This document shows, in pieces, positions 14,271 to 64,000 of a stretch of DNA of 64,000 bases. This stretch comes from Phallus indusiatus. Lineage: Eukaryota > Basidiomycota > Agaricomycetes > Phallales > Phallaceae. Every line of letters begins with the position of its first letter. The stretch's first letter is position 1. The notes beneath the pieces were generated by a model. That model was not told where the DNA came from, searched no databases, and saw only the letters and a list, made by a program, of their open reading frames with translations. Location: NCBI GenBank assembly GCA_027605045.1, contig JAQFWX010000030.1, positions 372,001-436,000 of the forward strand, in the 5' to 3' direction. The translations under genes and the position numbers were made by a program.

Positions 14271-15291
14271 GTTATCATTTCAATTACGGTTGAACCACAC
14301 AACATGGAAGTTTTTTTTGCTTACCCAATTGGACATCCTTCATTGGACGTATCTTTCCCTTATTTAAAGGATCAACCGCACCGCACTTCGATCTAAGCGT
14401 CGTTAAAGCATAAATGTACAGAGACGCCATCAACACTATTACCTCTGGCCTCTAAATGACAGAATCTTAACACGAGTTTAAGTATACGATACTGGTCGCC
14501 AGAACTGTAAGTTGATGTCAAGGAAGGTTATGTAAAAAGAACTAACACCAACATGGTGATAGTGAGTATTTTTGTATTTCCTGCTCGGGCGGGACTTTTG
14601 CTTCTTGTACTCATCAAAAGAAAACCACACCCCTCCCCACAACCAGACAGACGTCGCCATACATCGTGTTGGAGGAACGACGAATGCCATGATTGTACAT
14701 AAGCGTAAAGTTGACGACGGGTTGTTTGTACGAGTTCCTTTGTACCCAACCAGTTCGAGAGTACCTTATCTTGAGTGGACATATACAACACCATACTTCT
14801 GATACGAATGTATACGAATGGGCATGTGAACAGATATTCAAAAATTGAAATTTGAATTGCATCGAAACACACCTCGGTCCTCTACATTGATTGGTTTTCC
14901 ACCAGCCAATTGGTGCATCATCCATCCAGTACACGTGATGTCGAAATATCCAAAACTGCTGAATAACGAGTCTTGGTGAAATGAACGGAGATGGATTTAT
15001 CCGCTAGCACTGATTGCGTACTCCGAGTTCACGAATGAAAAGAATCTGGAGATGACAGTTTGACCTGGTGCTTGCTCGCCGACTCCAAAAGAATCCAACA
15101 GAGATAAAACGCGTGTGTATCTGGATATTGCATTGTACTAAATGTTTTAGCACAATGCAGTTAGCAAAAACATTGGTCGCGTCTGAATTTGCACAACTTG
15201 AAGTAATATGTATGTACGCTCAGTGCGGTCCGCCCTGCGCCCGGCGCTTCCACTGGCAGAGTTAACATTGAGCGCCTAACGAAATTTTCCT
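14271..15291. other. Intergenic, upstream of the TTC27-type gene
   Basis: About 1 kb with only short overlapping ORFs in several frames and no recognisable domain. The right end must contain the promoter of the large TPR gene that starts at 15292. Remnants of the BCS1 duplicate may extend a little way in from the left. Confidence 0.45.
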
Positions 15292-18075: not shown

Positions 18076-18366
18076 CCTTGTGTGTATTATTGAAAATAAA
18101 TGAAAGAGTCTCCATGTCGACCATATGTAACAATGTAACAATAATTAACTAAATTCATTCATTCTATTTCCAACTGGCAAACGTGTCTCCGAGTCCTCGC
18201 TATCAAATTTCCAAAATTCCAGGGCTGCCAAATGGGACGACACCAGATACGTGTGAAGCGCCCGCTTCAATTTGCTCATCTTTGTTTTGCCTCCGCACAT
18301 CACACACACACACTATACACTGTTCCACTCGTCATCACACTCCCTTCCCTCTCTCTCGCTTTGGCA

Positions 18367-30189: not shown

Positions 30190-33100
30190 TTAAGAAAGGG
30201 ATAGTAACGATTTACATTTATCGTCTAATAATCTGAGTTTTTTGTCTAGATTTAATAAGTCATCATCTGGTGGAGTATTGAACAAAGATTCGTTCGGTGG
30301 AGTAAGCAGACGTGTCATATCTCTGCTCACGCCCCGAGATAAAGCAACGTATAAATTGAAATGGTTAAGATTGCCGATTGGAGGCGAACGAAGATCCAGA
30401 ATAACAGGACGGATTGTAGATCCTTGCGCTTTATAATCTGTTAGACTGTAAGCAGATTGTATAGGGAATTGTGTCCGGTCGATAGAAACTTTAGATCCGT
30501 CGGCGAGATTGATTGAAATGGACGATGTTGAAGGGACGATAGGTAAAATACCTTGTGGGAGATTCGGTAAAGGTGGGAAATTACAGTGATCGGGTTTGAA
30601 AAATATCAGTTTGGGAAGATATTTCAATTCGTGGATAGATGAAGTTGATTGGATTGGAGGTTCGCGAGGGTCCAAAAAAATTTCGGTTACCGTACCGGAA
30701 GTGCCGTTAGCTAAATCGGCTGATACACGAATATTGAAAGTCAATAAAATGCGAAGACCGATGGCTAGATATACTTTTCGAGGCAAGATTTTTCCAAATT
30801 TCTTTTCTTTTCTTGCAATAGAAAATAAAATATCTGAATCTTTAGTTGGACTGAGTAAATCGCCATTTTGAAAGGTATGGCGCGCGTTGGCCACCAAAAT
30901 GATTTTTTGGTTTAAGTAACCGTATTTTTTGATGGCGGATAAATTCCATTTTTTTCGTACAACGTGTCGCGGCGTGACTAAAGTTGAATAAAGCCAAGGT
31001 TCAGTATAAAAGTTTGGAAAAGGCAAGGAGTTTGGTCGTAACGCCAGTCGTTTAACTTCGTTAATATCTTGTGGTGTGCAAACGCCATAACGAAGCCGTT
31101 CCAGAATGTCTTTCCATAAAGGATCAATTATTCGCATTTGTTGCGTGAGAATGACCACCGTCTCAAAATATTGAAAAGCGTCGTGTCCTATTTTAGCCCA
31201 AAGAGATGCACCAGGATTTTTGTATAGAGCGATATTATTCCGTGCAGTTGGAGGAAATTGGTGGAAATCACCGATAAGAATGACGCTTAGCCTGGAACCT
31301 AAAGGATCGTCCGTATTTGAATCAATATCAAATTTTGACACCACAGATGTCAAAAGACCCAAAGTTTCTTGACAAAGCATAGATACTTCGTCTATAATAA
31401 GATATCGACAATTGGTGATATTGTTTACTCGTCTGTTTTTGATTGCAGGAGAGGATTTTTCGGTGAAATTTGAAGTTCGCGGAAGAACAATCGGCAATCC
31501 AGCCCACCAATGAATAGTATTACCGTTGATGTTACTCGCAGCAACGCCCGAAGTAGCAGTAGTAGCCAATAAGTTTGAACAAGATTTAAGGGTGAATATT
31601 TCTTGAATACTTCGAATTACGGTTGATTTTCCAACTCCTCCCGATCCACAAATTAACATACGAAGGGGATTTTGAATAATTCCGTCTAGATAAAAATCGA
31701 GATGCCGAAGTACGATGGTACACGCACGTAATTGATCAGCAGTTAAAGGTTGTAAAATTCGACATATATCCTCGGAGAAAGTCGAAGATAGAGAAGGAAG
31801 TGTTTTGATTCCAGGTGAAGAAGAATCAACAAGTACGTCAGATAGGTTGGTCACAGATGGTAAAGGCAATGGAATCGGATTTGGCGAATCTTCACCCGAT
31901 TTTGTATATTTCGCTAATAAATCTTGCCAGAGAAGGTTTTGATCTTGCATTTCATTCGTGATGTTTGAGACCTTCGATGTACCAGAAAAGGACGGAGCGT
32001 CTTCGTTTTTAAAAATACCGACATCATCAGCAATTTCCATAGCTTCGTCTCCGTAATAAGCACCGCCCGAATTTTCCGAATACGAAGCAATTTCATCGAA
32101 ATCCAAATGAATTTTTCCATTTGTGTTAATATGGATGCCGGGAATAGTCGGAACGATATCATCATCGAGATCTATCGATGTGATATTATGAGAAAATCCG
32201 TGACCTTTTTCATCATTGGCTTTTTGAGAAGCTGCATCCGAAGTTGTGTAGAAAAATTGGAAATTATCGATGATACGTTTGTCGCGAAATGAACCATTTG
32301 TACGAAAGTCTTCAAATGCATCAGACCAAGAATCAAATCCCGACTTCAAATCGTCTAAATTTCTCCAAGGTTTCAATAATGTCAAAACCGAGGCACAATA
32401 AAAATCAAATTCTTCTTCCCGATCATTTCGAGGAACCCATGCACCTAGAAAATCAGGCATCATTTCACAAAGAGGATGACGAAGGATCCGGACTCTGTTT
32501 TGATGAAGGGTGGATGTAGGAAGATACGGAACCCGTTCATGTCGATGAGAAGTTTCGTCTGGTAAATTGCGACTAGGTTCATATGATTCCAAGAGAAAGT
32601 TCAAAAACGAGAACGTATCCATTGCATGACCTCGAAAAGCATAATCAGATAATTGGCTTTTGACACGTAAACCACCAGGTGTCATCTGTAAATAATATGA
32701 CGAAGGCGACTAATGTGTAGTTTAGTATAATGTAAGTGTATATTAAGAAAAATACCGACATCGTTCAATTCGTTATCTGAAGAACGGTCATCAGTATTGT
32801 CTTGGTTTGAATCATTGGCCATATCATCAACGAGGGATAAATGTCTGTAAACAATTTGAGATTGAAAACATAAGTTTAAAGAGGAATATATACTTTTGAC
32901 CACCAATATGAAATTCAGGAAAATGTTTACGCAAGGTAAAAAGCACCCCAGATAAATAAATCGGCACAAAACGGTGAGATAAAAAAGTGTCTCCGAATTC
33001 CATAATATAAGATACCATTTGTTGATTAGACAATTCTTGACCTTTAGAAAGAGCGTGGGCACATTTGGATAGTAAACGCTTGTTTTTTTTCCGTTCATCG

Positions 33101-36100
33101 GTATCATCTTGAACACTAGATTTGATGTACGAAAACCGGTCCGCTAGAAGAGCTGTCGCTTGGAAGGATTTATATTGTGCTTTGGCGGCATAATTGGTAA
33201 TATAATATGTTATATGTCGAGAATCACTGCCATTTGTCAACAATTTGATGTCGTTATTGGACCGAGTCGCAAATAAAATTATAGGATTCCACGTATTCAG
33301 AAAACCATATTCTCGTTCAGAATACCATAGACCGGATTCGTAAACAATATCCTTTTCAGATAAAGGCCAAGGCGCACGGCGTTTACAACGAACTCTGCCA
33401 AACTTGTCTCCAATTAAACAAGCCGATGAATTGCATTTATGTACTTGAACTGAACGAACAAGGCTGAATTGAAGCGGATCTCGAATAGAACTGAAATTTT
33501 GCAAAGTCGGATTAATTGGACGGGAATATGCAGATGCGCGTTCTTTGTGAAATGTGCGCTGTTCCGATGACTCGTTGTCAAAATAGTGTTGGTTTAAACC
33601 ATGTAAATGAGATTTAATATTACGTCCAATAAAGTCTTCTAATTTGGAACGGAAGGCCTCGTCTTTAAGTTTCTCCAGCATTTCCGATGACGAAGGAGAA
33701 CCAAGTAACCACAAGAGCATATGAAGATGGAGACTTCCTCTGTTCTGAGCCTCTACCAAACCCACATAACCGTTGATTTTACCAAATATGCCCCTCTCAC
33801 GTTGTATATGTCCCGTTGAAGATACTCGAATGCCCAACAGATCTTGTAGTATCAAATTAATAATGCGGAAAAAAAATTTCGTGGCCGCGTAAGGATTCGA
33901 TGTGCTATTAGATAGCCGTTCTTTAGTATCTGGGCCGCGGGAAGCATCAAACGAATCTAAACTGATATTGCAACCAGAATATATTTGGACGATAGGATCG
34001 TTAACGTCGTCGCAAGTGATTGTCATCCAAATATTTGCGGGGTTAGCCATTAAAGACATGCCATAAATTTTAGAACGGTTGGCCATTCGATTTTCATCTG
34101 TACCAGAAACATGTCTACGAGTAGCTTTGACGAAAGTTTTGAGGGTCCTAACGGCAGGATTCGAAGGAAGTTCACCCCGACGTTCTTCTTTTATGGCTTG
34201 TTGGAGAATGGCCGGGGTGATAGAATGTATAGAATATTCGAATCGTTTGAAATCAGAGCGTTTCATCTATTTAGTCATGTAAGTATATAAAAATCTAAAA
34301 TAAATCGTCTTACTTGTAATTGAGCTCCTAAACAAACTTGGCGTTTCTGAATGACATTGAATATGATGGATAAAAACATAGTGTTTTTGGCAAAACGACC
34401 GTCGTCGTATCGTAGCGACCATCGCGCGTGTTCTACATAAGATAACGGTTGAGGCCTATCAATCTCAAAGCCACCCATACCATAAGGAAAAAGGTATGGA
34501 AACGCTCCTAATAAATGATTAATGCCTTCTGAAGAACAAGACACGAGCCGACCAGAGTCATCTCTTCTACCATATTCGTTTACGTGAGATCCGCCTCGTA
34601 AAACAGCATAAGCAGGTTCACGAGACATAACTTCTTCGGCAGAATTCGAGAGGGCTTGGGTAAGAAGATCCGAATCAGTTATATCGAACCCATCTACATC
34701 GACGATAGCATTTTCATTCAAAGGAATAACAGTAGGATCTGAAAAAATCATACAGAAATCATTTAATGACAATAACATGGGTTGTATATTAGGCATAAAC
34801 GTACCCACTGAAACGCCCGAATCGTCATTATGAATAATAGGATCGGATTCTGGGTATTGATCGTCACATTCTTCATCTGAATGTACTGCATCATTAGTAT
34901 GGATATTAGATTGTTTTTCGGCATTGGATACGAGTATAGACGAATGTTTGATATTATGCGAAATAGAGTCTGGAACATCATCTTCCGGCAAACGAGATAA
35001 TATAGATTCGTCGATAAGAATGTCCTCATAGAAAGGGTTATTGTTTTTTAGCCATATCAAAGCATCCAACACGCGCCGTCGTCGAACCTGACACAATCCT
35101 TTGATAGTATTTTCCGGTTTTCCTCGAGGACCGACAACGGTAACACTGAACAAAGACGCAAGAATTTCTGGAGGCCTCGGCATTAAATTGCCTTTTATCA
35201 TGTCATGAATCCCGGATGTGTCCAAAGTGTACGTAGAAACATTTCCACGTAAACCAAAATTTACACCCCAATCCTTCCAATAACGAGCGTTGGGAGATTT
35301 AGGATATAGTTTGACGATATACGCCGAGGGATAATAGATAGATATCAAAAGTCGCTCCGGTATTGTAAGCAATTTTAATTCCAACGGTATGTCACCAATC
35401 CACATCTTGTTGGCCAGACTATATTTCGGAATCTTGTTTTCACTCAAAGCCGTGAAACAAGATTGGCAAAATCGCAATAATCGACTCTCATTATCCATCG
35501 CATCAACACAAACAGGGTGAAGAAGCATATCATCGCATAACACATGAGAAGGGTGCGGCTCCAACGGTTTCAATCTATGCTTGTTCGGAATGTCGTCTAT
35601 TGATAGCTCCAATGTATCGATTTCATCAAAACGACCTGCACAAGAAGCACAGACGGCTTGCCGGACAAAAACATCTCGACAATGGTCATTAAAAAGTCGG
35701 AGACGATCGAATTGATGTTGTTCAGGAACGATGTCGGGAAAGTCGATATCGTCGTCGCCACCAGCCAACTTCTTCTCCCTCAAAGAACGATAATAATCGA
35801 AGCATTTGTTCCGTTTCGAATTGCGACGATCTTGACGAACATATTCTTTCCATTCAGGGATGCGATTGATAATGAACCGAACAACGTCTTCATCTAATTT
35901 TGCGACTTCTCGCATAAACGCAGATCGCCAATGAAAAACTTTCCATGGTAAATCGATATTTAATTCTTTGAACATGGATCGGATGTTTTTCATAGACAAT
36001 CCTTTGAAGATATCTTCTAAATCCGTTTCTTTAAAATTATTTGATGAAAAAACACCGGTGAGGTCGCTGGATGAAATCTGCGAAACTATCTCATTGAAGC

Positions 36101-36359
36101 GAAAATCCTCCAATGTAAGGCAATATTGAACGAAGGCATCTCTTGATCGCAAAGCCCTGGGAGGCAAAAGACGTGCGAGATTAGACAAAATTTCGCGAAT
36201 GCTTTTCAAAGTGAAACCACGAATATAAGGTTGGATATCACCCATGAAAGGAACGACGAATAGGTGGAAAATTTTCGACGACGTAATTTCATGTACACGG
36301 ATAAAATGATTAACCCGTATGACCCGTGTTGACTTCCTTTGATCCGTATCGCCATTCAT
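30190..36359 (-). CDS. Helitron Rep-helicase (HUH nuclease plus PIF1 helicase), about 1,999 aa
   Basis: Exons 34314-36359, 32894-34266, 32760-32844 and 30190-32685 total 6,000 nt; the third donor is gtcggt, weaker than the rest. The N-terminal region has paired Cys motifs (CASC, CQSC) and a DUF6570-like block (ANKMWIGDIPLELKLLTIPE). The Rep domain shows the metal-binding LHLHMLLWL (HUH type) after VGLVEAQNRGS, and the two-Tyr motif TYYITNYAAK. The last exon is a PIF1-family SF1B helicase: Walker A CGSGGVGKST, motif Ia TATSGVAA, Walker B IIDEVSM, motif III GDFHQFPP, and the C-terminal YVALSRG. I see no stop or frame break, so the element may still be able to move. Confidence 0.93.
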
Positions 36360-40336: not shown

Positions 40337-40457
40337 CGAGGCACAGTACGAACAGATGTGCTCTCAGACGTTGGTATCTCCTCGGACATCGTACATGGGC
40401 AACACTAATGCCGCAACACGTGTATGCTCTTTGTCTCGTAGGCTTTCAAATCTGGTA

Positions 40458-40518
40458 TGTACGCGTCAATGGGTCGGCATATTATCTGCTGCCAGTGTAC
40501 GCGTCAACGGATCGGCAT
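40458..40518 (+). promoter_or_regulatory. Duplicated promoter motif shared by SDR genes
   Basis: A 23-bp string beginning TGTACGCGTCAA and ending TCGGCAT occurs at 40458-40480 and 40496-40518. One copy stands at 47255-47277 before the second SDR and one, inverted, at 60795-60817 before the fourth. The third SDR has none. All lie 80-145 bp before the start codons. Confidence 0.55.
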
Positions 40519-40557
40519 GGCTTGCTAATGTGATTTCATTTTAGTGACCTTCGTGCG

Positions 40558-40566
40558 TATATATAA
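40558..40566 (+). promoter_or_regulatory. TATA box of SDR gene 1
   Basis: TATATATAA, 35 bp before the ATG. Equivalent boxes are at 47341-47349 and (minus strand) 60723-60731 in front of the paralogues. Confidence 0.6.
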
Positions 40567-40600
40567 CGAGACCCAAGCTCGCAAGTTTGGTCAAGTCAAA

Positions 40601-41690
40601 ATGGCAACTCTCGAGAACAAAATCATCCTCATCATCGGCGGTACCTCTGGCATAGGCTTCGGCGTCGCAGAAGCTTGTCTCAAATCTCATGCCCAAACTG
40701 TTATTGTCGCTTCTTCTAACAAAGATCGTGTCCAGAATGCTGTCAAGAGATTGACGGAGGCGAAGCTTGGATCTGGACAGATCAAAGGCCATGTCGTCGA
40801 TGCGTTGAAGGAAGAGTCTCTGAAAACATTGTTGGAACAGGTTGGGGAAGTTGACCATATCGTCGTAACAAGTGGTCGGCCTGCCGGAAATATGCAATTC
40901 CCTGCTGTCGAACTTGACGCTGCCAGAAGTATGTTTTATCTTCACATCCTTTATCAATATGATTAAAATCCGATTCAGCCGTTTTCGATGAGAGAGTATG
41001 GGCATTAGTCGTCATAGCCAAGTACGCCAAAGTCCGTCCTGGAGGATCCATGACATTCACCAATGGTTCGTGATCCTTTTATTTTTTTTTATTTGAGGAC
41101 AATCTCAACTGCTTCTATAGGAACACTGTCTACTAAACCTTTCCCTTCATTCTCCTTCGCGGCTGGTATGCATTCGAGTCTCGAAGGTTTGACTCGAGGA
41201 CTAGCTGTTGATCTTGCGCCAATCCGTGTAAACGCTATCAGCGTTGGTGTTGTAAGTTGCCTGTTCTTTTCCCCTCCCAAGTTGCATTCTAATGTCTTTT
41301 TATCAACGCTCAAAAGATCAAGACGGAGGTATGTTATGGATTGATTTAGATCGTACTTTATATTTATATCATTCTCATTGATATTGTACAGATATGGGAT
41401 GCGATCCCACAACCCCATAGAGACGCGTTCCTCGACGGCAGCAACATGCTTGTTGGACATGTTGGAATGCCCGATGATGTACGTTGCATGACATTGCATC
41501 TTCTTCCCGTAGCTAATCACGTTGTACATCAGCTCGCCGAGGCTTATCTGTTCCTTATGAAGTAAGTGCAGCTTTTCCTTTTAAATCAACGAAGAGTGTT
41601 CTGAATGTATTATCTTTTGGTAGATGCGGCTTTATCACCGGGCAATTGATTGTGGCTGATGGTGGACAGATTCTCAAAGCTAAAGTCTAA
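40601..41690 (+). CDS. Atypical short-chain dehydrogenase, copy 1, seven exons, 246 aa
   Basis: Exons 40601-40928, 40979-41065, 41121-41251, 41317-41328, 41392-41478, 41533-41561 and 41624-41690 give 741 nt. The NAD(P)-binding motif is IIGGTSGIGFGV at residue 10. The segment IRVNAISVGV, the closing ITGQLIVADGG and overall length are classical SDR. The catalytic YxxxK is absent: the place is taken by FAAGMHSSLEGLTRGLAVDL. The middle Asn of the usual NAG is VTSGR. Atypical SDRs of this 'no Tyr' kind are known in bacteria and fungi, often of unknown activity. Exon 4 is 12 nt (IKTE). This copy lies outside the inverted duplication that holds copies 2 and 4. Confidence 0.88.
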
Positions 41691-43108
41691 AGTTCTGTAG
41701 AGCTCTTATCGTTTTCTTTTGTAGTTAATAATTCTGGTATCAATTTATTTGGTGATCTTACTATTTACTCTTGTGCTTGCCGCCTGAACGCAAAAAGCGT
41801 GATGCCGGAAAGAATGACAAACATCAACGAACCCAAGTTTGGAAGGTATGCATGTATTGTTACGATCCATTTGGATTCAAATTTACTACAGTGCTGATGA
41901 TGATCTGGTAAACCGCTGGGGGCTGACATCGCGAGGTTCGGTACGACTCGCAAACTTCAACCATACAGATGTCAAACTCACATCTTGTTACATGTTCAAC
42001 GCTCACTGTACTAAGAGACATAACCTTCATCGCCCTAACGATAGATCGAGATATATTTATGTAAGTGGAAGGGAAGCAAAGGAAAAGTAAGAATGACATA
42101 CACCGAATGCTATGCTATGGTGTACATACATACGCTCGGACGGCGGATCCCCCGGTAGACCTTTTGATGCAATGCATTTGACGACCATGCGGATATCATG
42201 ATGAACGGGGAATATTAGAAGAACAATTAATGAAGCAGAAGCAAAAGAAACTTGAGTACCATGGCCAAAAACGACCAACCAAGCTCATTAGTGCTAGTAG
42301 CAACGTTCAGTTACAGGTACGTCATAGTCAATATTTAATTGAATGCACGTATATGACTTTCGCCAGTTTTTCCATGCGTTAAATTGCTGTATTGCGGACA
42401 GACTTGGGTGTTAGGGTGTGGTCGAGACTCCTTTTCAGGGTTCCACACAAGGCTCCACTTGACCGGGCGAGCTTCAAGGGATACAATCAGAATTCCTGTG
42501 CCGGTAGTTCAATTGTTGAACAGATGGTGAGTAGGGTATTTGGTTTGTTCAGCAGGGTGAAGTACAAAATTTTATTTTCGTAGTTATATGTGACTTTTCA
42601 CTGAAGGATCCGAAGTCTCGCTAGTAGTAAATGCATTTGACATAGTTTTACTTTGGCAACGGTCGGTACTGTGATGTCGCCAGTGGAATTTTTTTATTCT
42701 GCTTGTTCAATTTAATTTCTAAAGAATTCACTTATTACTTATTTCTTGACTTCCTTTCGTAACGTTTGCTTCATGCCCGAATTAATACAAGGTATTGATC
42801 AGCCGGGGATTTGAAGCCCCTCTAAGTTGTCATCTAATCTGCCGACTGCCATGGAGCATTCAAGTTCCGGAAGAAAAGAACAAAGCCAACAAAGCCTCAG
42901 GTTAGGAGTATTATTTCAATTGTACAGGTATGTACGTATGAATTAATGGTGACAATAACTCCACTGAAAGGGCACTCTCTCCCGATGCTATGTATGCGCA
43001 AAAGGCATTTAAACCAACTTCGAACACCCCATCTCTTCACTTGTCCTCAAGTTCTCTAACATTCAGACTCACTTCTGTTAGCTTTCTTCTATAAACCTCA
43101 GTTCAAAT
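41691..43108. other. Intergenic before the KR-repeat gene
   Basis: About 1.4 kb. Several minus-strand ORFs near 41765-42278, one ending in a hydrophobic stretch (MFVILSGITLFAF), suggest a possible small membrane protein, but I could not join them with valid splice sites in frame. The right end is the promoter of the secreted-peptide gene. Confidence 0.4.
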
Positions 43109-44555
43109 ATGCGATTCACTAGCCTCGCCGCTGTTGCATCTCTCCTCTTCGTCTTTGCTACCGCTTCTCCATTGCGTGGTATGTCGGTCTAAATGAGTTT
43201 TATTCATGTACGCGTTTGCTTAACACGGAAATTTACCCACAGCCCCCAGCGCTCCTCCAGGTGATTGACTTTACAGCTTATGTGTTGGACTAATATATTT
43301 AATGACATCTCGATTGAATTGCAGGTGGCATCGGTCCCCGTAAGACTTGTCCAACGTGATTTTAGTATTTACTAATTGATATACTGTTTACTCCATCTTG
43401 AATAGATTGGGAAAAACGCGGTGAGCCTGCCTTTGTTTAAAACGTTCAAATGTATGTATTTAACCACGCTTTTTTCGAATGACAGATGTGGCAAGTGGCA
43501 AAGGGCAGGGTAAGTTGGACATGTTCAACGAGATGTGGTACTGGTCGTCATATTTTTTATTCGCATTCCACAGAACACCCTGACGTGTTTAAGCGCGGTG
43601 AGTACATTTGTTAATTGTGAAAACCCGAATTTTCAAACGGTGTACTGACATCTCCATTGCATCCGCGCAGACGAGAAATTGGCATGTGAGAAAAACATTC
43701 CCATCCAACGTCATGCTGTCTTAACTGTTACTTTGTTTGCTTCATCTTCAAAAAGATCCCCAGTATGCCAACTTGAAACGCGGTAAGCTTAAGATTATTA
43801 AGACTCAAATGTATTTAACCGCTCACCTGTTGAATGGCAGGGTTAGCAACGGACTTGAAGCAGCCTGGTAGGCCAGACATGTTCAACGAGATGTCCGCGA
43901 TATTCATAATTCCCACTTTACATAGTAATTATAGATCCCGGTCTTCAGTTCAAACGTGGTGGGTACTTTTGTTGTACGTGTATGCGCGAATTTTCAACCG
44001 GGATGTTTTGAAGGACCAGGAGTATTGGGAGAGGGTGAGTTAAATATTGTTCTGAAGACCGGAATATTTATCCCCACGCTCACACCAAACGGCAGAGGAG
44101 AACGACGTAGAGAAACGTAAGCCAGACATGTTCAGCGAGATGTAACCTTAACCGCCATAATTTTCTTTTTCACATTTCACAGTATCAGCTAGTAAGCGCG
44201 GTGAGTACATTTGTCAATTGGGTAAACCCAAATTTTTAAACGGTGTACTGACATCTCTATTTCATCGCAGACGATAAATTGCAATGTGAGAAAAACATTC
44301 CCATCCAACAGAATCTTGTACTAACTGTTATTTTGTTGATTCATCTTCAAAAGTACTCCCACCTCTCACTCATATACGGTAAGCTCAAGATTATTAAAAC
44401 CCGAATGTATTTAACCACGCACCTGCTGAATGACAGAAAATCAGAGGCTCAAGGAAAGAACACGAAGGTTCACGGTGAGCGGCTCATCGATACAATTTAA
44501 CTGCACGCGATTTGACTGTGATGTGAAAATAGAGGATTTCCTTCCTTCTTCATAA
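43109..44555 (+). CDS. Secreted Kex2-site repeat precursor, many micro-exons
   Basis: Exon 1 (43109-43178) encodes a signal peptide: MRFTSLAAVASLLFVFATAS. It is followed by exons of 15-27 nt: 43243-43260, 43325-43339, 43406-43420, 43486-43509, 43574-43597, 43671-43685, 43756-43782, 43841-43867, 43935-43958, 44014-44034, 44096-44116, 44183-44200, 44271-44285 and others. All are phase 1 with GT-AG borders. The product runs in segments ending in Lys-Arg: HWEKR, EHPDVFKR, YPQYANLKR, GLQFKR, LSASKR. The KR codons stand at the very 3' end of their exon (AARCGYG|gt). Lys-Arg after a signal peptide is the Kex2 cleavage signal, so a family of short secreted peptides is likely. The last exons are uncertain: one repeat is 2 nt short, and the end could be 44555 or 44759. 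A partial second gene lies inverted at 63.2-64 kb. No known family recognised. Confidence 0.6.
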
Positions 44556-45118
44556 AGAATGAACGGTAGGCCCAAGCATCGCAGTTCACTAGAATCATCT
44601 GATCAATTTGTATTTTTTCCAGTGATTATGGGTCTCGAAGATAAAGGTAGATAGAAAAAACTTCAACGAATAATGGGAATCACAGCTGGTTTTTTTTTTT
44701 TCAGTCAAAGTCTTTCAAGTGGATTTTTGCAAGATCCCATCTCCGTAAGCGTGCGTTCAGAACTTGTTAAGAGACGGAAACTGATTTTTTGCTTATTTAT
44801 TCTTGTTTTATTCTTGTTCTGTAGCCACTATTATTTTTGAATTTATATGCTAGTCTTTCATTCGATTTGATTATATATTTATTTATTACGAGTCTTTGAC
44901 TCGTCGTCATTTTACATGAATGATTGGAGTGACCTGAAATCTCTTTTGTCCGACCCAATCTAATTATTGCAAGAGTCTAATGGATAACGAATGAACTGGA
45001 TCTAAGACTTGTGGTATTGACAAGTTTCCAATTAAAAACTGATGTGAGTGCAAAGTTGGTGCAAAGCGTTTATGATGTTCGTGTGACGAACAACACGTGA
45101 GCGTGACCACAAATACAA

Positions 45119-45710
45119 ATGTCCTCTTCTTCCCGACCACCACCCCAGTATATACTTCTGTCCCATTCAAATGCTTCTTCTCCGTTGACCAGTCAGTTTA
45201 ACACCCCGGCCAGGTTATCCCACCCAATTATACAGTACCATTTCAAAGACGATCCCTCTTTATCTCTCGACCCCGCCGATAATCCACGTGTCTTGGTTAT
45301 GGACTATGACCCAATGTCGCCGGACTCAGTATATGTGCAGAGCCTTTCATCTCAGTTGGCTGTGACGTGTTTGAAAGTGACGGATGCACCTGGAGCTTCT
45401 AACGACGATAATGAGGAACGAAATAACAAGATGTATGTGATCGAAACTGTATCTCATTGCAACGATAAAGAGTAAGTCTGGTTGATTGAGTTGAATGATT
45501 TGATTTGATTTGGGTGTTATAGGAACGGGACTATTCTGGATAAAGGTCCAGAGATGATATTGAATTTTCGAGAAAGGTGAAATGTTTATTGCCACGGTAG
45601 TTGTCTCCCATGACTTACAACTGTTGTTTATTAGAAACGCACTTTTACGGAAGGCTTTAGAATATCCACTTCCTTCTTCGACGACAGATGTCGATGTTAA
45701 ACATGCTTGA
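45119..45710 (+). CDS. Conserved unknown protein, left-arm copy, 160 aa
   Basis: Exons 45119-45471, 45523-45576 and 45635-45710 make 483 nt. The protein begins SSSRPPPQYILLSHS, contains HPIIQYHFKDDPSLSLDP and VLVMDYDP, and then VTCLKVTDAPGA before an acidic loop and NKMYVIETVS. It ends in a charged helix and KHA. I recall similar uncharacterised Agaricomycete proteins but no function. The right-arm copy at 62360-62946 is nearly identical, and a decayed third copy follows at once. No signal peptide or membrane segment. Confidence 0.8.
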
Positions 45711-46109
45711 AAACCTCTTCTACGGGTGTAATTTTGCTCGCCGTGCCCGTCATGAACTATGCGTCGGCTATATCTTGTGGACTATATCAGGTTTTACGGC
45801 GAACTGGATGGTGACGGTGTGAGTAGAATTTCCCATTGGCAAGGGTGACACCATATGATGAAGTTAGCAGTGCTATTTGGTCAGGGTCTGCCTGGTCGAA
45901 GAATTCGAGTTACAAATGATGGTGTTGGTTCATCTTCGAATTCGATATTTCTCATGCGACGAGCGTGGTATCCTAGAGTGTATTTTGTGTACCCCAGCTG
46001 AGATACCGAATTGACGCAGTTCAGTACTCCAGAAGATGCCTGAACGTGAACGCTTGCTGAATGTTTGTGTACACTGTAACACACGACACGTAAACGTGAC
46101 TACGACATC

Positions 46110-46395
46110 CTCTTCCTGCCCAATATACACTCCAATTTCCAGCCACCAAATGTCTTTTCTCCATCAACTTAGGTTCAATCATGATCATTCAACCGTGTGA
46201 TGCTATTTAACCACCTCTGCCTCTCGCCTCCGCTCATAATGTATGACTCCTGTCGTCTTGGTCGTACACTATGCCAGCATTGTCACTTCTTTGAAAATTA
46301 CCGATGCCGCCCCAGCCTAGGACTTCCAACGATGACAGGGAGCAAAATAATAAAGAATAACCAGGTATCTATAATTGTACCGATAAAGAGTAATC
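46110..46395 (+). pseudogene. Decayed copy of the adjacent conserved unknown gene
   Basis: The order of words follows the gene 1 kb upstream: 'ccaatatacact' (start region), 'tctttgaaaattaccgatgc' against tttgaaagtgacggatgc, 'acttccaacgatgacaggga' against cttctaacgacgataatga, and the exon end 'gataaagagtaa' in both. No open frame. The same relic is present in the right arm at about 61690-61950, so it predates the inverted duplication. Confidence 0.7.
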
Positions 46396-47379
46396 TTTCG
46401 CGTCGTTTTTTCCTGAGAAAATAAGGTAAATATGGAGCTATCAACAAAGGTGAATGTTGCCCCAATAACCTTCATGTTTACAGCTATTGTTATGACAGTT
46501 TGGTGGGAAGGTCTGGTATATCCGCCGTGCATGTTCTAGCCTTGCATTCTCATACCCAGTCTTGTTATGAATGACGTTATGCAGCAGAATTAGCGTTCTA
46601 ATTCGTTCAAACCTTTTCAGGTCGACGAATGATTAGGTTCGAATTGCAAATTATGATGGTGCTTATTTTCGGTTTCTATCTCTCCCATGGGATCCAGCGA
46701 CATCTAAGTCTCCGATGGATATCGTCAAGGGGTGAGGCTAATCATATGGGTCAGTGCTTTTCAAATGATAATTTGTTAATTCATCTATTTCGGTAACTAC
46801 CTTATATATCAGAGCGTCTGGCCCAAATCTGAGATGATAGTATTGGTCTCTAAGAGCTATTATTTGTTGCACGGTCCTTCGGTCCTGGCCACGGTACCCC
46901 TGTCAATGACATGGCGTCGCCGGGCTAACTTTTGCTAGTATGTAGATGGGTTTGTAATTTTCATACTTGTCGCTGGTTGGTTGATGTCTGAATTGCCGTG
47001 CATTCACCTAGCCGAGATGGTGAATCAGACCGATTGACGCGACTTGGAGTCACTCAGTTGCATGTGCACCTTTTTGTTCGAAGCAGATTCGAATTTCGAG
47101 CACCTCGAGGAGCCATGTTCCCTGATTCATAATACCGATCAGTACGAGTCACTATGTCTATCGAGAGAAGCATCAGCTGAGTCACAAATTTGATTTATCG
47201 CAGACCTGCCGCAAGACGCGTATGCTCTTCGTTTCAGAGCCTTTCTATCCGGTGTGTACGTATCAATGGGTCGGCATGCTACCTGGTGATGATGTTGAAC
47301 GTAATTTCTTCGTGTTAGGTGAGACGTTGGCGTTCGTACGTATATATAATGAGGCCAAGGTCGAATTTATTAAGTAAAA

Positions 47380-48478
47380 ATGGCAACTCTTGAGAACAAA
47401 ATCGTCCTGATCATTGGCGGTACCTCTGGTATAGGCCTCGGGGTTGCAGAAGCTTCTCTCAAGTCTCTTGCCCAAACTGTCATTGTCGCTTCTTCAAACA
47501 AAGATCGTGTTCAGAATGCGGTCAAGAGACTGACAGAGGCAAAGCTTGGACCTGGACAGATTAAAGGCCATGTTGTTGATGCAGAGAAGGAAGAATCGCT
47601 GAAAGGACTACTGAAGGAGGTCGGAGAAGTAGATCATATCGTGGTAACAAGTGGTCGGATTAGCGGAAATATGCATTTCCCTAGTGTCAATCTTGAAACT
47701 GCCAGAGGTATGTTTTATTTCCCATCTTTTATTATATAAATGTAAATCAAAATCCGATGCAGGCATGTTTGATGGTAGAATATGGGCATTAGTTGTCATA
47801 GCCAAGTTCGCCAAAATCCGTCCTGGAGGGTCCTTGACATTTACCAGTGGTCCGTGATCCTTTTTTTGACTGTCTGAAGACAATCTAAATTGTTCCCTAT
47901 AGGAACAGCGTCCATAAAACCTATACCTACATTTTCCATGGCAGCTGGTATTAGTTCGAATCTCGAAGGTTTGACTCGAGGACTGGCTGTTGATCTTGCG
48001 CCAATCCGTGTAAATGCTATCGGCGCTGGTGTAGTAAGTCGCCTGTTCTTTTCCAACAAGTGTGTTCACACTTCGTCTTAATCAATCTCTTATCAACGCT
48101 CAAAAGGTCAAAACTGAGGTATGTTATGGCTCGTTACTTGATTCGGATCATCCTGTCATTCTCATTTACACTGTACAGTTATGGAGTCAATTTCCATCAG
48201 CCTTGAGAGAAAAATTCTTAGACAATGGTAGTTCATACATGCTTGTCCAGCATGTTGGAATGCCCGATGAGGTATATTACATGACTATCTATTATTTATC
48301 TGCTAGTAGTTAAATCACATTTTATTTTAGGTCGCCGAAGCTTATTTGTTCTGTATGAAGTAAGTGCACTTGTTTGTTTTATCAATGAAAATGTTTGAAG
48401 ACCTTTTATAGATGCAGTTATGTTACCGGGCAATATATTGTGGTTGATGGTGGACACACTCTCAAGCCTCAAGTCTGA
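47380..48478 (+). CDS. Atypical short-chain dehydrogenase, copy 2 (left arm), 248 aa
   Basis: Exons 47380-47707, 47763-47849, 47903-48033, 48107-48118, 48179-48271, 48331-48359 and 48412-48478 (747 nt) match copies 1, 3 and 4 in number and phase. Glycine motif LIIGGTSGIGLGV. The catalytic region reads SMAAGISSNLEGLTRGLAVD, so both Tyr and Lys of YxxxK are missing. The closing motif is VTGQYIVVDGG-like (YVTGQYIVVDGGH). Its closest relative in the window is copy 4 in the right arm; their promoters and first exons are almost the same. An inactive-looking catalytic centre kept in four copies suggests a conserved non-classical role. Confidence 0.88.
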
Positions 48479-50072
48479 GTTTTTGTAGAACTCTTGTTGT
48501 TCTTGTAGTTATAATCTGGTATTGATGTATTTGGTGATTATATTAACTCCTTTTGTGCCGCCGATACGCACCTCAGCTGCCAGGAATTGTCAGCTTTAAG
48601 TCTCAATCACCGGATTTTTGCGACATAATGTTTACGGGCGCTCACCCACTTGAAGCTCCGCCGAGCTCTTTTTCTCCTTAGCCTCTCCTTTGGTTTTACA
48701 TTCATTCTTACCGCCATCAAAACAAGCATCTTGTTCAAAAGAATCATAAATGTATTAGTGCATAAGCCTAAGGTACGCTCTTTCTTAGCCATAGCTCCCT
48801 TAATACCATCATTTTACGGGTGTATTTACGAAACTTCCTGACCCTCTTCCCCTTTTGTTCAACCTCTGAAGTTGCAATGCTACCGACGATATTTTCGGAG
48901 ATGCTGAGCTTGTGACTATCCACCCTATAGTAAACGTAACGATATGGCTTCGTTCTCTTCCAAATGTTCGCGATTCGGGACCTTGCACTCATACACTGGC
49001 ATGCGCCTCGACCTGCTGGGAAAGAGCAATCGCCTCTTCGGGTGCGAGTTCGGGATCGTTAATTAATGTTTGTTCCATTTAAGCGTGCACTCCAATGTGA
49101 CGCCGGAGATTTCTGGACCTGTAAGGACCGAACCCCAGCAAGACGCTCCATGGCTTTGGTCGCACAGGTCTCGAAAGAGACATTTCCAAAAATTCTCTCC
49201 TAATATGTTTGTAGAGTCCGAGGACTGACTGATTTTAAATCTTCCTCCTCTATGTGCGATTTCTTCAAAGGAGTTTGATTGGTACCGGTTGAAACAGTGG
49301 TTGATTTTCCCTTCAACGGAGAGGAAGGAATCATAGCTCGCGATCGGGCTGTGTACCTGGTGGTATTCTGGTTTGCGCTTGTGAACAGGTCAGTTGTAAC
49401 ACCCGATGGTTCGCAATGGATGGTTAGACGTTCTTCCAGACCGAGCTTGTTGCATACACAAATAATGTCATGTTTATATATATACGTGTGTGTGAATTAA
49501 CTGCGTCCCGGAGGGCATAGCCCTATGCGCAGAGACTTTTACTCGAGTGTGCGAGTCGCTCATCAGGCGCCATATTTGTGTCGAACGCCGTAACTATGCA
49601 TTCGCTAAGGTGTAATACCACTTGATAAAGTAAGATCATTGGCTATATCTTATCTTATCGTCTCCGCGGAAAGCCCACACATATCGCATCTAACGTGGTA
49701 GAGACGCCGCTTGCCCTTCGCAGTTGGCAGTTAAGACCTTTCTATGCACCTATAGTAAATATCTGGAATATTATAACACATTTAAGTCCGGTATGGCCTT
49801 GGGTAAGCGATATACTGGCATCTTCGACGTTGGAAACTTGGGATGTAATTAAAATTCAGTAGATAAACCCCCTAGCCTTTTTCGTAGCGGGTGTCAATCA
49901 GTGAGACAGATCAGATTATCCATCTACTTCCATTCTCCTGGAGTCTCCTGACGATCATTTTTTAAGAAGAGATTCTCCAAGAGTTGCTTGGATCAATTCT
50001 TGTTTCATTAAGCAGCGGGAAAGACAAATACATAATTTCTACATTCACTTCTTTCTTGATTATTCAATCTAT
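48479..50072. other. Left-arm spacer of 1.6 kb without a recognised gene
   Basis: The matching spacer in the right arm is only 159 bp (59431-59589), so about 1.4 kb is extra here. A pair of overlapping ORFs near 48607-48841 (opposite strands) and one at 49279-49500 have no domain. No terminal repeats found by eye. Confidence 0.45.
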
Positions 50073-53592: not shown

Positions 53593-55555
53593 CTGATTGA
53601 GGAAGCTCTCAGAAGACTATTTATAAGAAAACCTTTTATCATTTGCTTCTGATGGGGTTTTAGCGCAATTGAAGAACTCGAGTGACTGTTTTGAATGCCT
53701 GAGAACCCGGAAGACGAGTCACATCCACACTTCCGCTCGGAATCACAACCATAAGAAAAGGTTGATTCATCAAAATTTTGATGATCTTTCTGTGATACTG
53801 TCGACTTATGCCATCAACCAAATGAGTAAGGAAGGAGAGTGACCGCAGTTGCATGTTGAGCATTATAAAGCACCGAGATGGTTCATTGGTTGCCGGCCGC
53901 CGGTGACGCGTATACATACGTTCGTGCGTCATGCACCAGAACGAGATGAGATGTTAAACAAAGGTATCAGCCTTCTTTTATAAAAACAAACGAGGAACCA
54001 GATAGAGATCTTCTATGTTTAGAATCAAGATAAACATGACGGCTTCTTGGTACTACATACTTCTTCTTGCTAGTGCCAGTGCCAGTGCCAGCTGTCAGAA
54101 ATGGGGGTTTTTCTTTCACCGTATTTCTACTCAGAAGTATAGCACAGCATTTACAGAGTAAGTTGAGTTGTTCAGGTGCATGTACGAATGTATTAAATGT
54201 ATGATGTGTTGTGTCGTCTCTGAAGATCTCTGTTGTGGACTGCGATTGGGTCGCAGGCTCGCAGCTCGACTCCTGGGCTTTACCAGTGGAGGTGGTCAAC
54301 AAATAAGTAACGAATTTTTTTTTGATGAGATGGAGATAGTATGGTACCGTGCACGTGTACCTTTTATCTTTTTCGAGATGCGGGGCCGAAAGATGAAAAT
54401 CAAAAGATCAACTAAGATAGTTGTGGTAGAGTCATACGCAAGGACCAGCAATCATCTCAAAAGAACGGATCATCATGGTAAACATGGATACAATTGGTGC
54501 GACATGAGTCTTTAAAGTGGGTGCGTTGGAGCCTTGTTGGAGCTTGGTACCATGTAATACACATACATGTTTTCATTTTGGTATCAAGCGCACCGGATCT
54601 ATAATCGGATCTAACGGCAGATTGATTTGTATGGCTCGTTTATTTTTAAAAAAACACGCGCGCCCTGTGTTTAAATTGGCAGATATCTTGACAGGTCGAG
54701 AGATAGACGGTTCTATATACGGTGTGATTCTCCCACAAATGAATCCTGCGTATTGCTCCTAATCTGCCATGAAGGGATAGATATGATATGAAGATAGGAG
54801 AATTAGGCCAACAATGCACCGGTACAGCCTGGTACAGCATGTGCGCAACTTCTTTCCGAAAACCCTTCTCAAGTTAATTGTTATGTATACAGACGGTAGT
54901 GGCTCAATACGGCTGTAAGTACAAAGGGGAAGGGTGCAATGAATTTGAAAAAGAAAGCTGGGATGGGTTATACCATAGAAATGATTTTTTGATGCGCTCG
55001 TGCTTGCTGTTATCTGCGAATTAGATGAAGAGAGAGTCGCTGCCCTTAGGGACAGGGAGAAATCGATACCATTCTGTTCATTGTCCCATAATCTTTTATT
55101 ATACGCGGTTGTCATCGTTTATATTATCCAGTATCTATTGTTTCTACTCGTCTGGCAACTGGCGGTGCCGTGTCGATTCCATATATTATGGTTGTGTGAT
55201 TACGTAATCTGACTTACAGCAACGCCCTTTAAACCCTTTGCCCAGAGGAGAGAGGGGATTACACCCATGGACGAGAAAAAAAAACACCCTTTGCCCAACC
55301 CAGAAAATTATACAAAAATGGGATTCCAGCTCCGCCCCGTAACCAGTATTACTTCCTTGTCCACTTACTACTCACTACTACTCACTACTACCACTCTCTG
55401 TCCTCGACGCTTCCTCGTGTCCTTTTCTCTCGTCATCCTCCCCGTCTATACATTTCATATAACTCACAGTCAGTGTTCTCATCCATTCACGACGTCACCT
55501 TTCATTTCGTATCATCTAACCGCGTGTTCTTTTTTTGTTTCTTATTGTGCACCAG
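53593..55555. other. Intergenic, with CT-rich leader of the 14-3-3 gene
   Basis: No gene recognised between 53.6 and 55.2 kb. A (GTGCCA)-type triplicate lies at about 54072-54091. From about 55350 to 55550 the plus strand is strongly C+T-rich with a tandem 'ctcactacta' (55371-55390), which is typical of fungal promoters and leaders of highly expressed genes and fits the 14-3-3 gene downstream. Confidence 0.55.
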
Positions 55556-61950: not shown

Positions 61951-62359
61951 TTGGGCAGGAAGAGGACGTCGTAGTTACGTTCACGTGTCGTGTGTTACAG
62001 TGTACACGAGCATTGGGCAAGTGTTAAGGCACCTTCTGGAGTACTGAATTGCGTCAATCCGGCATCTCGGCTCGGGTGCACAAAAAATACACTCTAGGAT
62101 ACCACGCTCGTCGCATGAGGAATATCGAATCCGAAAATGAACCAACACCATCATTTGCAACTCGAATTCTTCGATCTGGCAGACCTTGGCCAAATAGCAC
62201 TGTTAACTCCATCATATGACGTCACCCTTTCCAATGGGAAATTTTACTCACATCGTTACCATCCAGTTCGCCGTAAAACCTGATATAGTCTACAAGATAT
62301 AGGCAACGCATCGTTCATGACGGGCACGGCGAGCAAAATTACGTCCGGAGGAGAGGTTT

Positions 62360-62946
62360 TCAAGCATGCTTAACATCGACATTTGTCGTCGAAGAAGGAA
62401 GTGGATATTCTAAAGCCTTCCGTAAAAGTCCGTTTCTACAAAGAACAGCTGTAAATCATGGACACAACTACCGTAGCAATCAACATTTCACCTTTCTCGA
62501 AAATTCAATATCATCTCTGGACCTTTATCCAGAATAGTACCGTTCCTATAACACCCAAATCAAATCAAATCATTCAACTCAATCAACCAGACTTACTCTT
62601 TATCGCTGCAATGAGATACAGTTTCGATCACATACATCTTGTTATTTCGTTCTTCATTATCGTCGTTAGAAGCTCCAGGTGCATCCGTCACTTTCAAACA
62701 CGTCACAGCCAACTGAGATGAAAGGCTCTGCACATATACCGAGTCCGGCGACATTGGGTCATAGTCCATAACCAAGACACGTGGATTATCGGCGGGGTCG
62801 AGAGATAAAGAAGGATCGTCTTTGAAATGGTACTGTATAATTGGATAGGATAACTTGGCTGGGGTGTTAAACTGACTGGTCAATGGAGAAGAAACATTTG
62901 AATGGGACAGAAGTATATACTGGGGTGGTGGTCGGGAAGAGGACAT
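62360..62946 (-). CDS. Conserved unknown protein, right-arm copy
   Basis: Exon 1 is 62593-62946, and the remaining two exons reach the stop at 62360 (KHA end). The protein differs from the left copy by only a few residues (one Ser fewer in the first run, NASS to NVSS, ARLSHP to AKLSYP). Distance from this start to the SDR start is 2,254 bp against 2,261 bp in the left arm, so the arms are collinear. Function unknown. Confidence 0.8.
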
Positions 62947-63199
62947 TTGTGGGTCACGCCCACGTGTTGTTCGTCACACGAACACCTAATAAACGCTTTG
63001 CGGTCACTTGGCGCTCACATCAATTTTTTAATTGGAAACTTGTCAATACCACAAGACTCGGATCCAGTACAATAAGCTTATTCATTTGCGTAATCTGGAT
63101 TGTTGCAATGATTAGATTGGGTCGGACCATAGAGATTTCAGGTCCCTCCAATCATTCATGTAAAATGACGACGAGTCAGCGACTCGTAATAAATAATCA

Positions 63200-64000
63200 T
63201 ATAATCAAATCAAATGAAAGACAAGCATATAAATTTAAGAACAATATTGACTACAGAATAACAATGAATAAAGCATAAAATCAGTTTCTGTCTCCTAACA
63301 AGTTCTGAACGCGTGCTTACGGGAATCGAAGATGGGATCTTGCAAAAATCCACTTGAAACACTTTGACTGAAAAAAAAACAGCTGTGATTCCCATTATTC
63401 GTTGAAGTTTTTTCTATCTACCTTGATCTTCGAGACCAATAATCACTGGAAAAATACAAATTGATCAGATGATTCTAGTGAATTGCGATGCTTGGGCCTA
63501 CCGTTCATTCTTTATGAAGAAGGAAGGAAATCCTCTATTTCACATGACAGTCAAATCGTATGCAGTTACATTGTATCAATGAGTCGCTCACCGTGAACCT
63601 TCGTGTCCTTTCCTTCAGCCTCTGATACAGATGCGTGGTTAAATAAATTCGAGTCTTAGTTGGTAATCTTAAGCTTACCGCGTTTGTAGGCGGCATTGAA
63701 GGGATCTTTTTTAAGATAAAGCAAACAAAGGAACAGTTAATACAGCATGATTTTGGATGGGAATGTTTTTCTCACTTGCGAATTTCTCGTCTGCGGTGAA
63801 ATGAAGATGTCAGTACACCGTTTAAAAATTCGGGTTTACCCAATTGACAAATGTACTCACCGCGCTTTACAACTGGAACTGTAATGTGAAAAAAAAAATT
63901 ATGACAATTCAGGCCACATCTCGCTGAACATGTCTGGCTTACTTTTCTCCTGGTCGTTCCCCTCAACTATTCGATATGAGCGTGACCATATACGTTCCAG
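63200..64000 (-). CDS. Secreted KR-repeat precursor, right-arm copy (partial)
   Basis: Runs off the window at its 5' side, so the signal-peptide exon is not seen. Visible micro-exons on the minus strand, phase 1, GT-AG: one reading VPVVKR, one DEKFA, one completing NPFNAAYKR, and one EAEGKDTKVH. The KR codons again end their exons (CGCG|gt). The repeat DEKFANPFNAAYKR matches DEKLAYPQYANLKR of the left copy in length and pattern. Downstream exons follow the left copy to about 63290. Confidence 0.5.

Follow-up and report, generated by a model that had tools for sequence, protein, structure and literature searches.

We have found in Phallus indusiatus two genes, A and its inverted paralogue B, that probably encode secreted precursors cut by a Kex2-type protease and built of cassettes, in which divergence is quicker in the peptide cores than in the introns, as expected under diversifying selection. 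The window analyzed is the whole stretch of 64,000 nucleotides, to which all positions given without a contig name refer (its contig is C130); A lies inside it and B extends past its end. The gene structure is real and unusual, and its splicing is strongly supported in one of the two paralogues.

As read from the sequence, gene A covers positions 43109-44555 (+) and has 17 exons, the last one closing with a TAA that ends at exactly 44555. The first, for the putative signal peptide, has 70 nt, the next 14 are micro-exons of 15-27 nt, and exons 16 and 17, the latter with the stop, have 38 and 23 nt; the introns between them have 58-73 nt and are GT...AG throughout, and the predicted product has 137 residues. 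Exon 1 (43109-43178) carries the signal-peptide-like sequence MRFTSLAAVASLLFVFATASPLR, judged by inspection (charged start, hydrophobic core, A-T-A before S20). It is followed by exon 2 (43243-43260, 18 nt, APSAPP), exon 3 (43325-43339, 15 nt, GGIGP) and exon 4 (43406-43420, 15 nt), which ends in KR|G and closes the N-terminal piece. Exon 5 (43486-43509, 24 nt, DVASGKGQ) and exon 6 (43574-43597, 24 nt, EHPDVF and KR|G) together give the predicted peptide DVASGKGQEHPDVF. Exon 7 (43671-43685, 15 nt, DEKLA) and exon 8 (43756-43782, 27 nt, YPQYANL and KR|G, predicted peptide DEKLAYPQYANL) have no counterpart at this place in B, which also lacks exon 9 (43841-43867, 27 nt, GLATDLKQP) and exon 10 (43935-43958, 24 nt, DPGLQF and KR|G, predicted peptide GLATDLKQPDPGLQF). 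Three exons, 11 (44020-44034, 15 nt, GVLGE), 12 (44096-44116, 21 nt, EENDVEK) and 13 (44183-44200, 18 nt, LSAS and KR|G), contribute to the predicted peptide GVLGEEENDVEKLSAS. The predicted C-terminal piece, which starts DDKLQLLPPLTHI-RK-SEAQ, comes from exon 14 (44271-44285, 15 nt, DDKLQ), exon 15 (44354-44378, 25 nt, LLPPLTHI and a split Arg codon), exon 16 (44437-44474, 38 nt, RK-SEAQGKNTKVH) and the coding part of exon 17 (44533-44555, EDFLPSS and stop), whose 23 nt are identical to those of B.

All five Lys-Arg (KR) codon pairs of A sit at micro-exon ends as AAR CGY G|gt (at 43420, 43597, 43782, 43958 and 44200), so the earlier claim that the Arg codon is followed by one base and then the intron stands, here and in B (4/4). 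The preliminary description had proposed a signal peptide followed by at least six KR-ended segments. The secreted multi-peptide design is supported by the signal-like exon 1 and the micro-exon chain running to the TAA, with five such segments. At the sixth site, the end of exon 15 (44378), the sequence reads ...HI-R|K, the intron splits the Arg codon and the KR has decayed; the B counterpart of this exon has 27 nt and an intact KR|G. The statement that all exons are phase 1 fits 15 of the 16 introns of A, the exception being intron 15, which is phase 2 because exon 15 has 25 nt, and 13 of the 14 micro-exons are multiples of 3. The frame is restored because exon 16 starts 8 nt upstream of its B counterpart, at an acceptor similar to the ones in introns 4 and 8 (repeat family D4). 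The number of micro-exons per peptide, given before as one or two, is mostly two and sometimes three. Past the stop codon, at 44556-44760 and at the same place in B, intron-like GT...AG stretches flank a 24-nt segment (44623-44646 in A), and a skip of the stop exon in either gene would use this segment and give a different C-terminus. Alternatively these stretches could be introns of the 3' UTR.

A homologue with the same layout is present about 19 kb away in inverted orientation. Paralogue B (C130:436572-435512, minus strand) has 12 exons with KR at exon ends in 4/4 cases, and its 10 internal exons, of 15-30 nt, are all multiples of 3. Exons 1-6 lie past the window end (C130:436018-436572) and the last six fall within it (63512-63966, minus strand): exon 7 (63943-63966, 24 nt, VEGNDQEK), exon 8 (63861-63878, 18 nt, IPVV and KR|G), exon 9 (63776-63790, 15 nt, DEKFA), exon 10 (63679-63705, 27 nt, NPFNAAY and KR|G), exon 11 (63592-63621, 30 nt, EAEGKDTKVH) and the coding part of exon 12 (63512-63534, EDFLPSS and stop). 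The predicted peptides of B are EASKGSEHPDVL, ALFSDVEGNDQEKIPVV and DEKFANPFNAAY.

Used as query against 5.8 billion proteins, A gave a single match, P0001, an uninterrupted frame of 98 residues on a contig of 1384 nt, whose source label 'lgn' presumably denotes assembled sequence reads. P0001 equals spliced B exactly over the 12 exons, including all six that lie in the window. The B product had been predicted before the protein search and agrees with P0001 at 93/93 residues; the five further residues, ALFSD, correspond to one more 15-nt phase-1 exon that is present in the genome. At this point, before VEGND, B had first been read with a 3-nt exon or a skip, a reading replaced by the 15-nt exon with an acceptor further upstream. 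The frame of P0001 is unbroken over 11 intron positions, so the record must derive either from RNA or from an intron-free copy. A search of the genome with the spliced sequence gave 8 matches, each of them to an exon at one of the four known places, and on this ground we set aside a processed retrocopy of this genome as the origin of P0001. As the genome search brought up no intron-free copy, the splice sites of B are strongly supported by this sequence evidence, an intron-free copy in some other strain being the remaining alternative. The splicing predicted in the preliminary description is thus strongly supported for B, while for A it rests on homology: neither the protein search nor a profile search returned a transcript-like record of A. 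With a profile made from the two sequences, A and P0001, the one relative among 217 candidates was P0001 itself, which says little about relatives in other species.

The A-B pair has a second copy on contig C140, which we take to be the other haplotype. P0001 agrees with the C130 copy of B; the C140 copy has two residue changes against it, D to E and L to F. For A, the copies (C130:415109-416555 and C140:464020-465467) are the same but for one intronic base in 1447. For B, 22 positions out of 1061 are listed as different, one of which is due to trimming; 4 are exonic substitutions, and 2 of these change a residue. Such uneven divergence inside 20 kb may point to gene conversion, a sweep or an assembly effect.

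Chance was considered as a source of the exon chain by a dynamic programming scan that accepts only phase-1 micro-exons of 12-33 nt under strict donor and acceptor rules. At the A locus the scan returned a chain of 11 exons, 5 of them KR-ended. In shuffles of the locus (two-base blocks) a KR-ended exon appeared in the best chain in 0/300. When the window was scanned in tiles on both strands (n = 156), at least two KR ends were found in only three tiles, two over A and one over the end of B (62349-64000, minus strand), and exactly one KR end in 3/156, one of which overlaps A. Random splice signals were rejected on the basis of the shuffles and the tile scan. Simple probabilities of finding KR at the exon ends are 5e-8 for A (5/5) and 1e-6 for B (4/4), values that assume independence and make the case look stronger than it is, since the modules arose as copies of each other. 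In the genome of 67.2 Mb, AARCGYGGTRDG occurs twice at a spacing of 150-180 nt in 10 places, all of them within the two genes (contigs C130 and C140), and the same pattern read backwards in none. With looser codons, AARMGNGGTRNG pairs at 150-180 nt gave the same 10 places against 2 for the backwards control. As for further families, there were no places in the genome with AARMGNGGTRNG pairs spaced by 60-90, 90-120 or 180-210 nt, against 0, 0 and 1 for the backwards controls.

Together with short-chain dehydrogenase genes, A and B are part of an inverted duplication that amounts to about 6.5 kb and consists of separate pieces. The pieces are 43776-48493 against 59575-64268 (85%) and 41828-43636 against 64055-65862 (77%). 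The wider regions 40409-49415 and 59575-68943, the latter partly past the window, contain nested inverted and direct duplications at 74-86%, with a further copy of the duplicated stretch at 67463-68943 and SDR matches at 40529, 47374, 52145 and 60333. Between A and B we found a 14-3-3 gene and an exon with a FAD-binding match just below the curated cut-off (21.6 against 22 bits). Upstream of the start of A, a core-promoter-like stretch of 58 bp (42982-43039, +) is common to A, B and a second family of secreted repeat-protein genes; compared from both sides it matches the genes of that family at 81-83%, with an 81% DNA match at C140:108919-108976. This suggests, as far as sequence goes, a shared promoter or common descent. 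The second family consists of secreted Pro/Leu-rich repeat genes, located at C140:109045 onwards (L029:2045-3200) with copies at C130:8210, C130:81756, C70:40571 and C140:177892. Read by eye, its sequence has MQLTSSAFFAFVISAVVVSAVPFP..., LPSLPVSLP repeats, a 12-nt micro-exon (V-E-K-P) and LKRSEF ahead of an exon end. Elsewhere in the window there are long uninterrupted open reading frames at 15280-23120 (+), including frames of 931, 710 and 519 residues, and at 30193-36359 (-), including 839, 479 and 694, which are possibly transposable elements.

The comparison of the modules with each other indicates how the genes were assembled. Within A the intron pairs 5/12, 6/13, 7/14 and 8/15 are collinear, at 74%, 86%, 84% and 86% identity. 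In these four pairs 222/269 alignment columns are identical (83%, gaps counted), against 38/73 (52%, gaps counted) in the paired exons 6/13, 7/14 and 8/15. Since introns 5-8 pair in order with introns 12-15, a block of exons and introns was tandemly duplicated, and the precursor most likely evolves by duplication of exon-intron cassettes. Exons 7-10 of A, which amount to two whole peptides, are missing from B with the frame intact, and their removal from A in silico leaves an open frame, as had been anticipated in the claim that gain or loss of exons would alter the peptide set without breaking the frame. Intron 5 of B pairs with intron 10 of A at 77% identity, as would be expected if the gain or loss of exons 7-10 had its ends at like introns. 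Single skips of internal exons keep the frame in 10/10 cases in B and 13/15 in A (23/25 overall), the exceptions being exons 15 and 16 of A. The frame neutrality of exon skipping, also put forward before, is therefore largely confirmed, while its use is unsupported, with a single isoform on record.

Between A and B the introns differ at 55/551 aligned bases and the exons differ more. In six pairs of micro-exons of equal length, compared ungapped, 32/102 bases differ (Fisher P 1e-7 against the introns), and over the internal exons with gaps 32/157 (Fisher P 9e-4 against the introns). Exon 3 differs from its B counterpart at 9/15 bases (ungapped) and the following intron at 4/66. There are slow exons too, like exon 6 with 1/24. 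The flanks diverge by 7.7% upstream and 6.5% downstream. Unchanged are the signal exon (0/70 aligned bases), the KR ends of three exons (0/21) and the last coding exon (0/23), and in those same three KR exons the sequence ahead of the KR differs at 12/36 bases. In B the acceptor AG of exon 2 is lost, and P0001 does not contain the segment. In spite of exon 15 being 2 nt shorter in A and exon 16 starting 8 nt earlier, the frame is kept. At the sequence level, exons that are less conserved than introns between fixed KR ends are the mark of fast-changing peptide cores. The divergence of the exons may partly reflect relaxed constraint or small compensated frameshifts instead of positive selection, and two sequences do not suffice to separate such frameshifts from positive selection.

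Kex2 cuts secretory precursors after KR. We infer that the signal peptide would direct the A and B proteins into the secretory pathway, where a Kex2-type protease would cut after each Lys-Arg. The cuts would free linear, cysteine-free and mildly acidic peptides of 12-17 residues, four from A and three from B, besides the N- and C-terminal pieces. The proprotein-convertase P domain (P_proprotein) has one match in the genome, at C111:519347-519655, a family that also matches 1 of 14 control genomes. The gene itself, as visible in the DNA, is a string of exon-intron cassettes, the usual cassette being two phase-1 micro-exons of which the second carries the KR and the first base of the next codon. 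A holds, in frame, a whole number of such cassettes (two peptides) that B does not have, which is the one difference for which this can be seen. Recombination between like introns would add or remove peptides, and the cores would outpace the introns that carry them, in the manner expected under diversifying selection. The likeliest role of the peptides, though taken by itself on the doubtful side, would be that of an extracellular set directed towards other organisms or neighbouring hyphae.

It is a distinct possibility that the position of KR at exon ends is a historical accident, in which an ancestral intron happened to lie one base past a KR and was copied by tandem duplication, the genes being ordinary Kex2-processed precursors of an intron-rich fungus. 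Phase-1 symmetric modules spread easily through duplication, and given the homology among the module introns, one or two origins would suffice for the coincidence. By shared cassette ancestry the repeated coincidence may indeed be one event copied rather than many events selected. Such an accident leaves unexplained why the cores diverge more than the introns while the KR ends stay; it accounts for the origin of the arrangement and not for its maintenance, and is compatible with the cassette-built, fast-changing precursors that we favour. The KR ends also bear on whether the protein is secreted whole, for example as a wall-associated protein with the KR pairs as uncut linkers. Dibasic linkers occur also in uncut modular proteins, and the cutting of A and B is itself something that we infer. 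The conservation of KR (0/21 bases) next to changing sequence (12/36) in the three KR exons, together with the linear peptides from such precursors reported for four agaricomycetes in the available text of PMC9769878, makes secretion of the whole protein improbable.

Two other explanations concern the use of the genes. A might be a decaying copy, with B alone a working precursor: the sole transcript-like record agrees with B, exon 15 of A is 2 nt shorter and has lost its KR, and skipping of exons 15 or 16 breaks the frame. The acceptor further upstream preserves that frame, however, the other splice sites and KR ends of A are intact and its copies on the two contigs differ by a single intronic base, so we regard decay as unlikely. 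Alternative splicing of the micro-exons could yield many peptide combinations from one gene, as in the micro-exon genes of schistosomes. The 23/25 single skips that stay in frame, the loss of exon 2 from B through its acceptor and the micro-exon-like stretch past the stop exon, which would offer another C-terminus, are all in keeping with it. Exon symmetry alone is no proof of use, though, and with only one isoform in the protein database there seems little likelihood that splicing plays this part. Cassette-built precursors with a Kex2-type cut remain the reading that we consider probable for both genes.

In the available texts of the fungal multi-peptide precursor literature compared here, the focus is on protein repeats, and in A and B it is the splice structure that coincides with the processing sites. 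By this coincidence a peptide can be gained or lost simply and in frame, and exon skipping could add variety. Exons of 15 nt are hard for gene finders. Genes such as these are easily overlooked on account of their tiny exons, and also as peptide surveys seek repeats, which here have been erased. Since the introns are conserved, a search for repeated introns around diverged tiny exons offers a route to them.

The closest fungal parallel is with the Kex2-processed repeat proteins or KEPs (PMC6339444, PMC7329392, PMC9769878), which according to the available texts share with A and B several KR-divided peptides in a small protein and a signal peptide, in A and B a putative one. Several dibasic sites divide the mature part in both genes (5 KR in A and 4 in B). 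The survey rule for KEPs is at least three like repeats of 8 or more residues between sites (according to the available text of PMC7329392). Among the 9 segments past the first KR (5 in A, 4 in B) no pair within either precursor reaches 40% identity, by pairwise identity rather than by the survey's own scoring, while three A-B pairs do. The precursors fall outside the repeat rule because the peptides have diverged, and we therefore call them KEP-like and not KEPs; their repeats are visible in the DNA, chiefly in the introns. Linear peptides from such KR precursors have been detected in four agaricomycetes, and deletion of six such precursor genes gave no apparent phenotype, the authors suggesting a role towards the biotic environment (available text of PMC9769878). 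By analogy, A and B would be precursors of this agaricomycete linear-peptide working type. None of PMC9769878, PMC7329392 and PMC6339444 uses the word exon in its main text; intron is used a single time, in one paper's methods.

The preliminary description had named Kex2-processed repeat proteins, among them dikaritin precursors such as those of ustiloxins, as known in fungi, and strict membership was upheld for neither group. The dikaritin and epichloecyclin precursors (ustiloxin, GigA; available text of PMC9233826) resemble A and B in being secreted multi-core precursors thought to be cut by Kex2. The cores of A and B are dissimilar, unlike those of dikaritins, and have no conserved Tyr: of the 9 segments past the first KR, one A segment (DEKLAYPQYANL) and one B segment (DEKFANPFNAAY) contain Tyr, and a repeated core with a cyclised Tyr is absent. 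Membership was rejected on these grounds and for the lack of a UstYa match nearby. Among the matches listed, none of UstYa (DUF3328) falls within C130:372001-443900, the nearest listed on C130 being at 28-29 kb, about 386 kb from A. Pfam searches of 28 surrounding open reading frames found UstYa in none, and phmmer with four UstYa exon reading frames as queries (three of the four of equal length, from equal-scoring places) found no match at E 0.05 among 1462 reading frames of the window plus 7.9 kb. The HxxHC motif is present in 7 of these 1462, two of them near A and B (41768-41956, -, and 55025-55204, +), and these two have no Pfam family match. In the genome as a whole there are at least 20 UstYa-domain matches (C122, C70, C130, C140, C184, C136, C129, C168), several as neighbouring pairs, and possibly these pairs mark dikaritin-type clusters. 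The ascomycete alpha-pheromone precursors (available text of PMC7329392) also have KR-separated linear peptides, which follow a signal peptide (in A and B a putative one), and two B segments begin with Glu-Ala. Unlike them, A and B have no repeated identical pheromone and no consistent X-Ala/X-Pro spacer, and given the list of segments, without identical pheromone repeats with STE13 spacers, membership was rejected.

In the literature searched, whose scope leaves out most subscription papers, no fungal report of the micro-exon and peptide layout was found, and none of four peptide strings taken from the two genes was present in the papers searched. The earlier impression that no such exon-per-peptide layout was known is to be narrowed to fungi, as there are precedents in animals. 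In the schistosome micro-exon genes or MEGs (available texts of PMC4350168 and PMC10526429) secreted proteins are coded mostly by very small symmetrical exons, as are A and B, whose secretion is predicted, and in several of them the mature part evolves faster than the signal peptide, a further likeness (available text of PMC4350168). Their introns reach 5 kb, against about 60 nt in A and B, alternative splicing is described for them, and the terms cleavage and furin were not found in the available text of PMC10526429. The honeybee apidaecin gene has several exons of one peptide each in a multi-peptide precursor (available text of PMC3415428). It is an animal gene for antibacterial peptides; A and B use two or three micro-exons per peptide, and their peptides are mutually unlike. 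With both animal systems the analogy is one of likeness and not of kinship. Tentatively, and a little short of an even prospect, we propose that in A and B exon end and protease site are locked together, that like introns serve as recombination handles for in-frame gain and loss of peptides and that the cores are under diversifying selection, a design that would be overlooked as a class by protein-based repeat surveys and that would be convergent with the schistosome micro-exon genes and the apidaecin gene of the honeybee.
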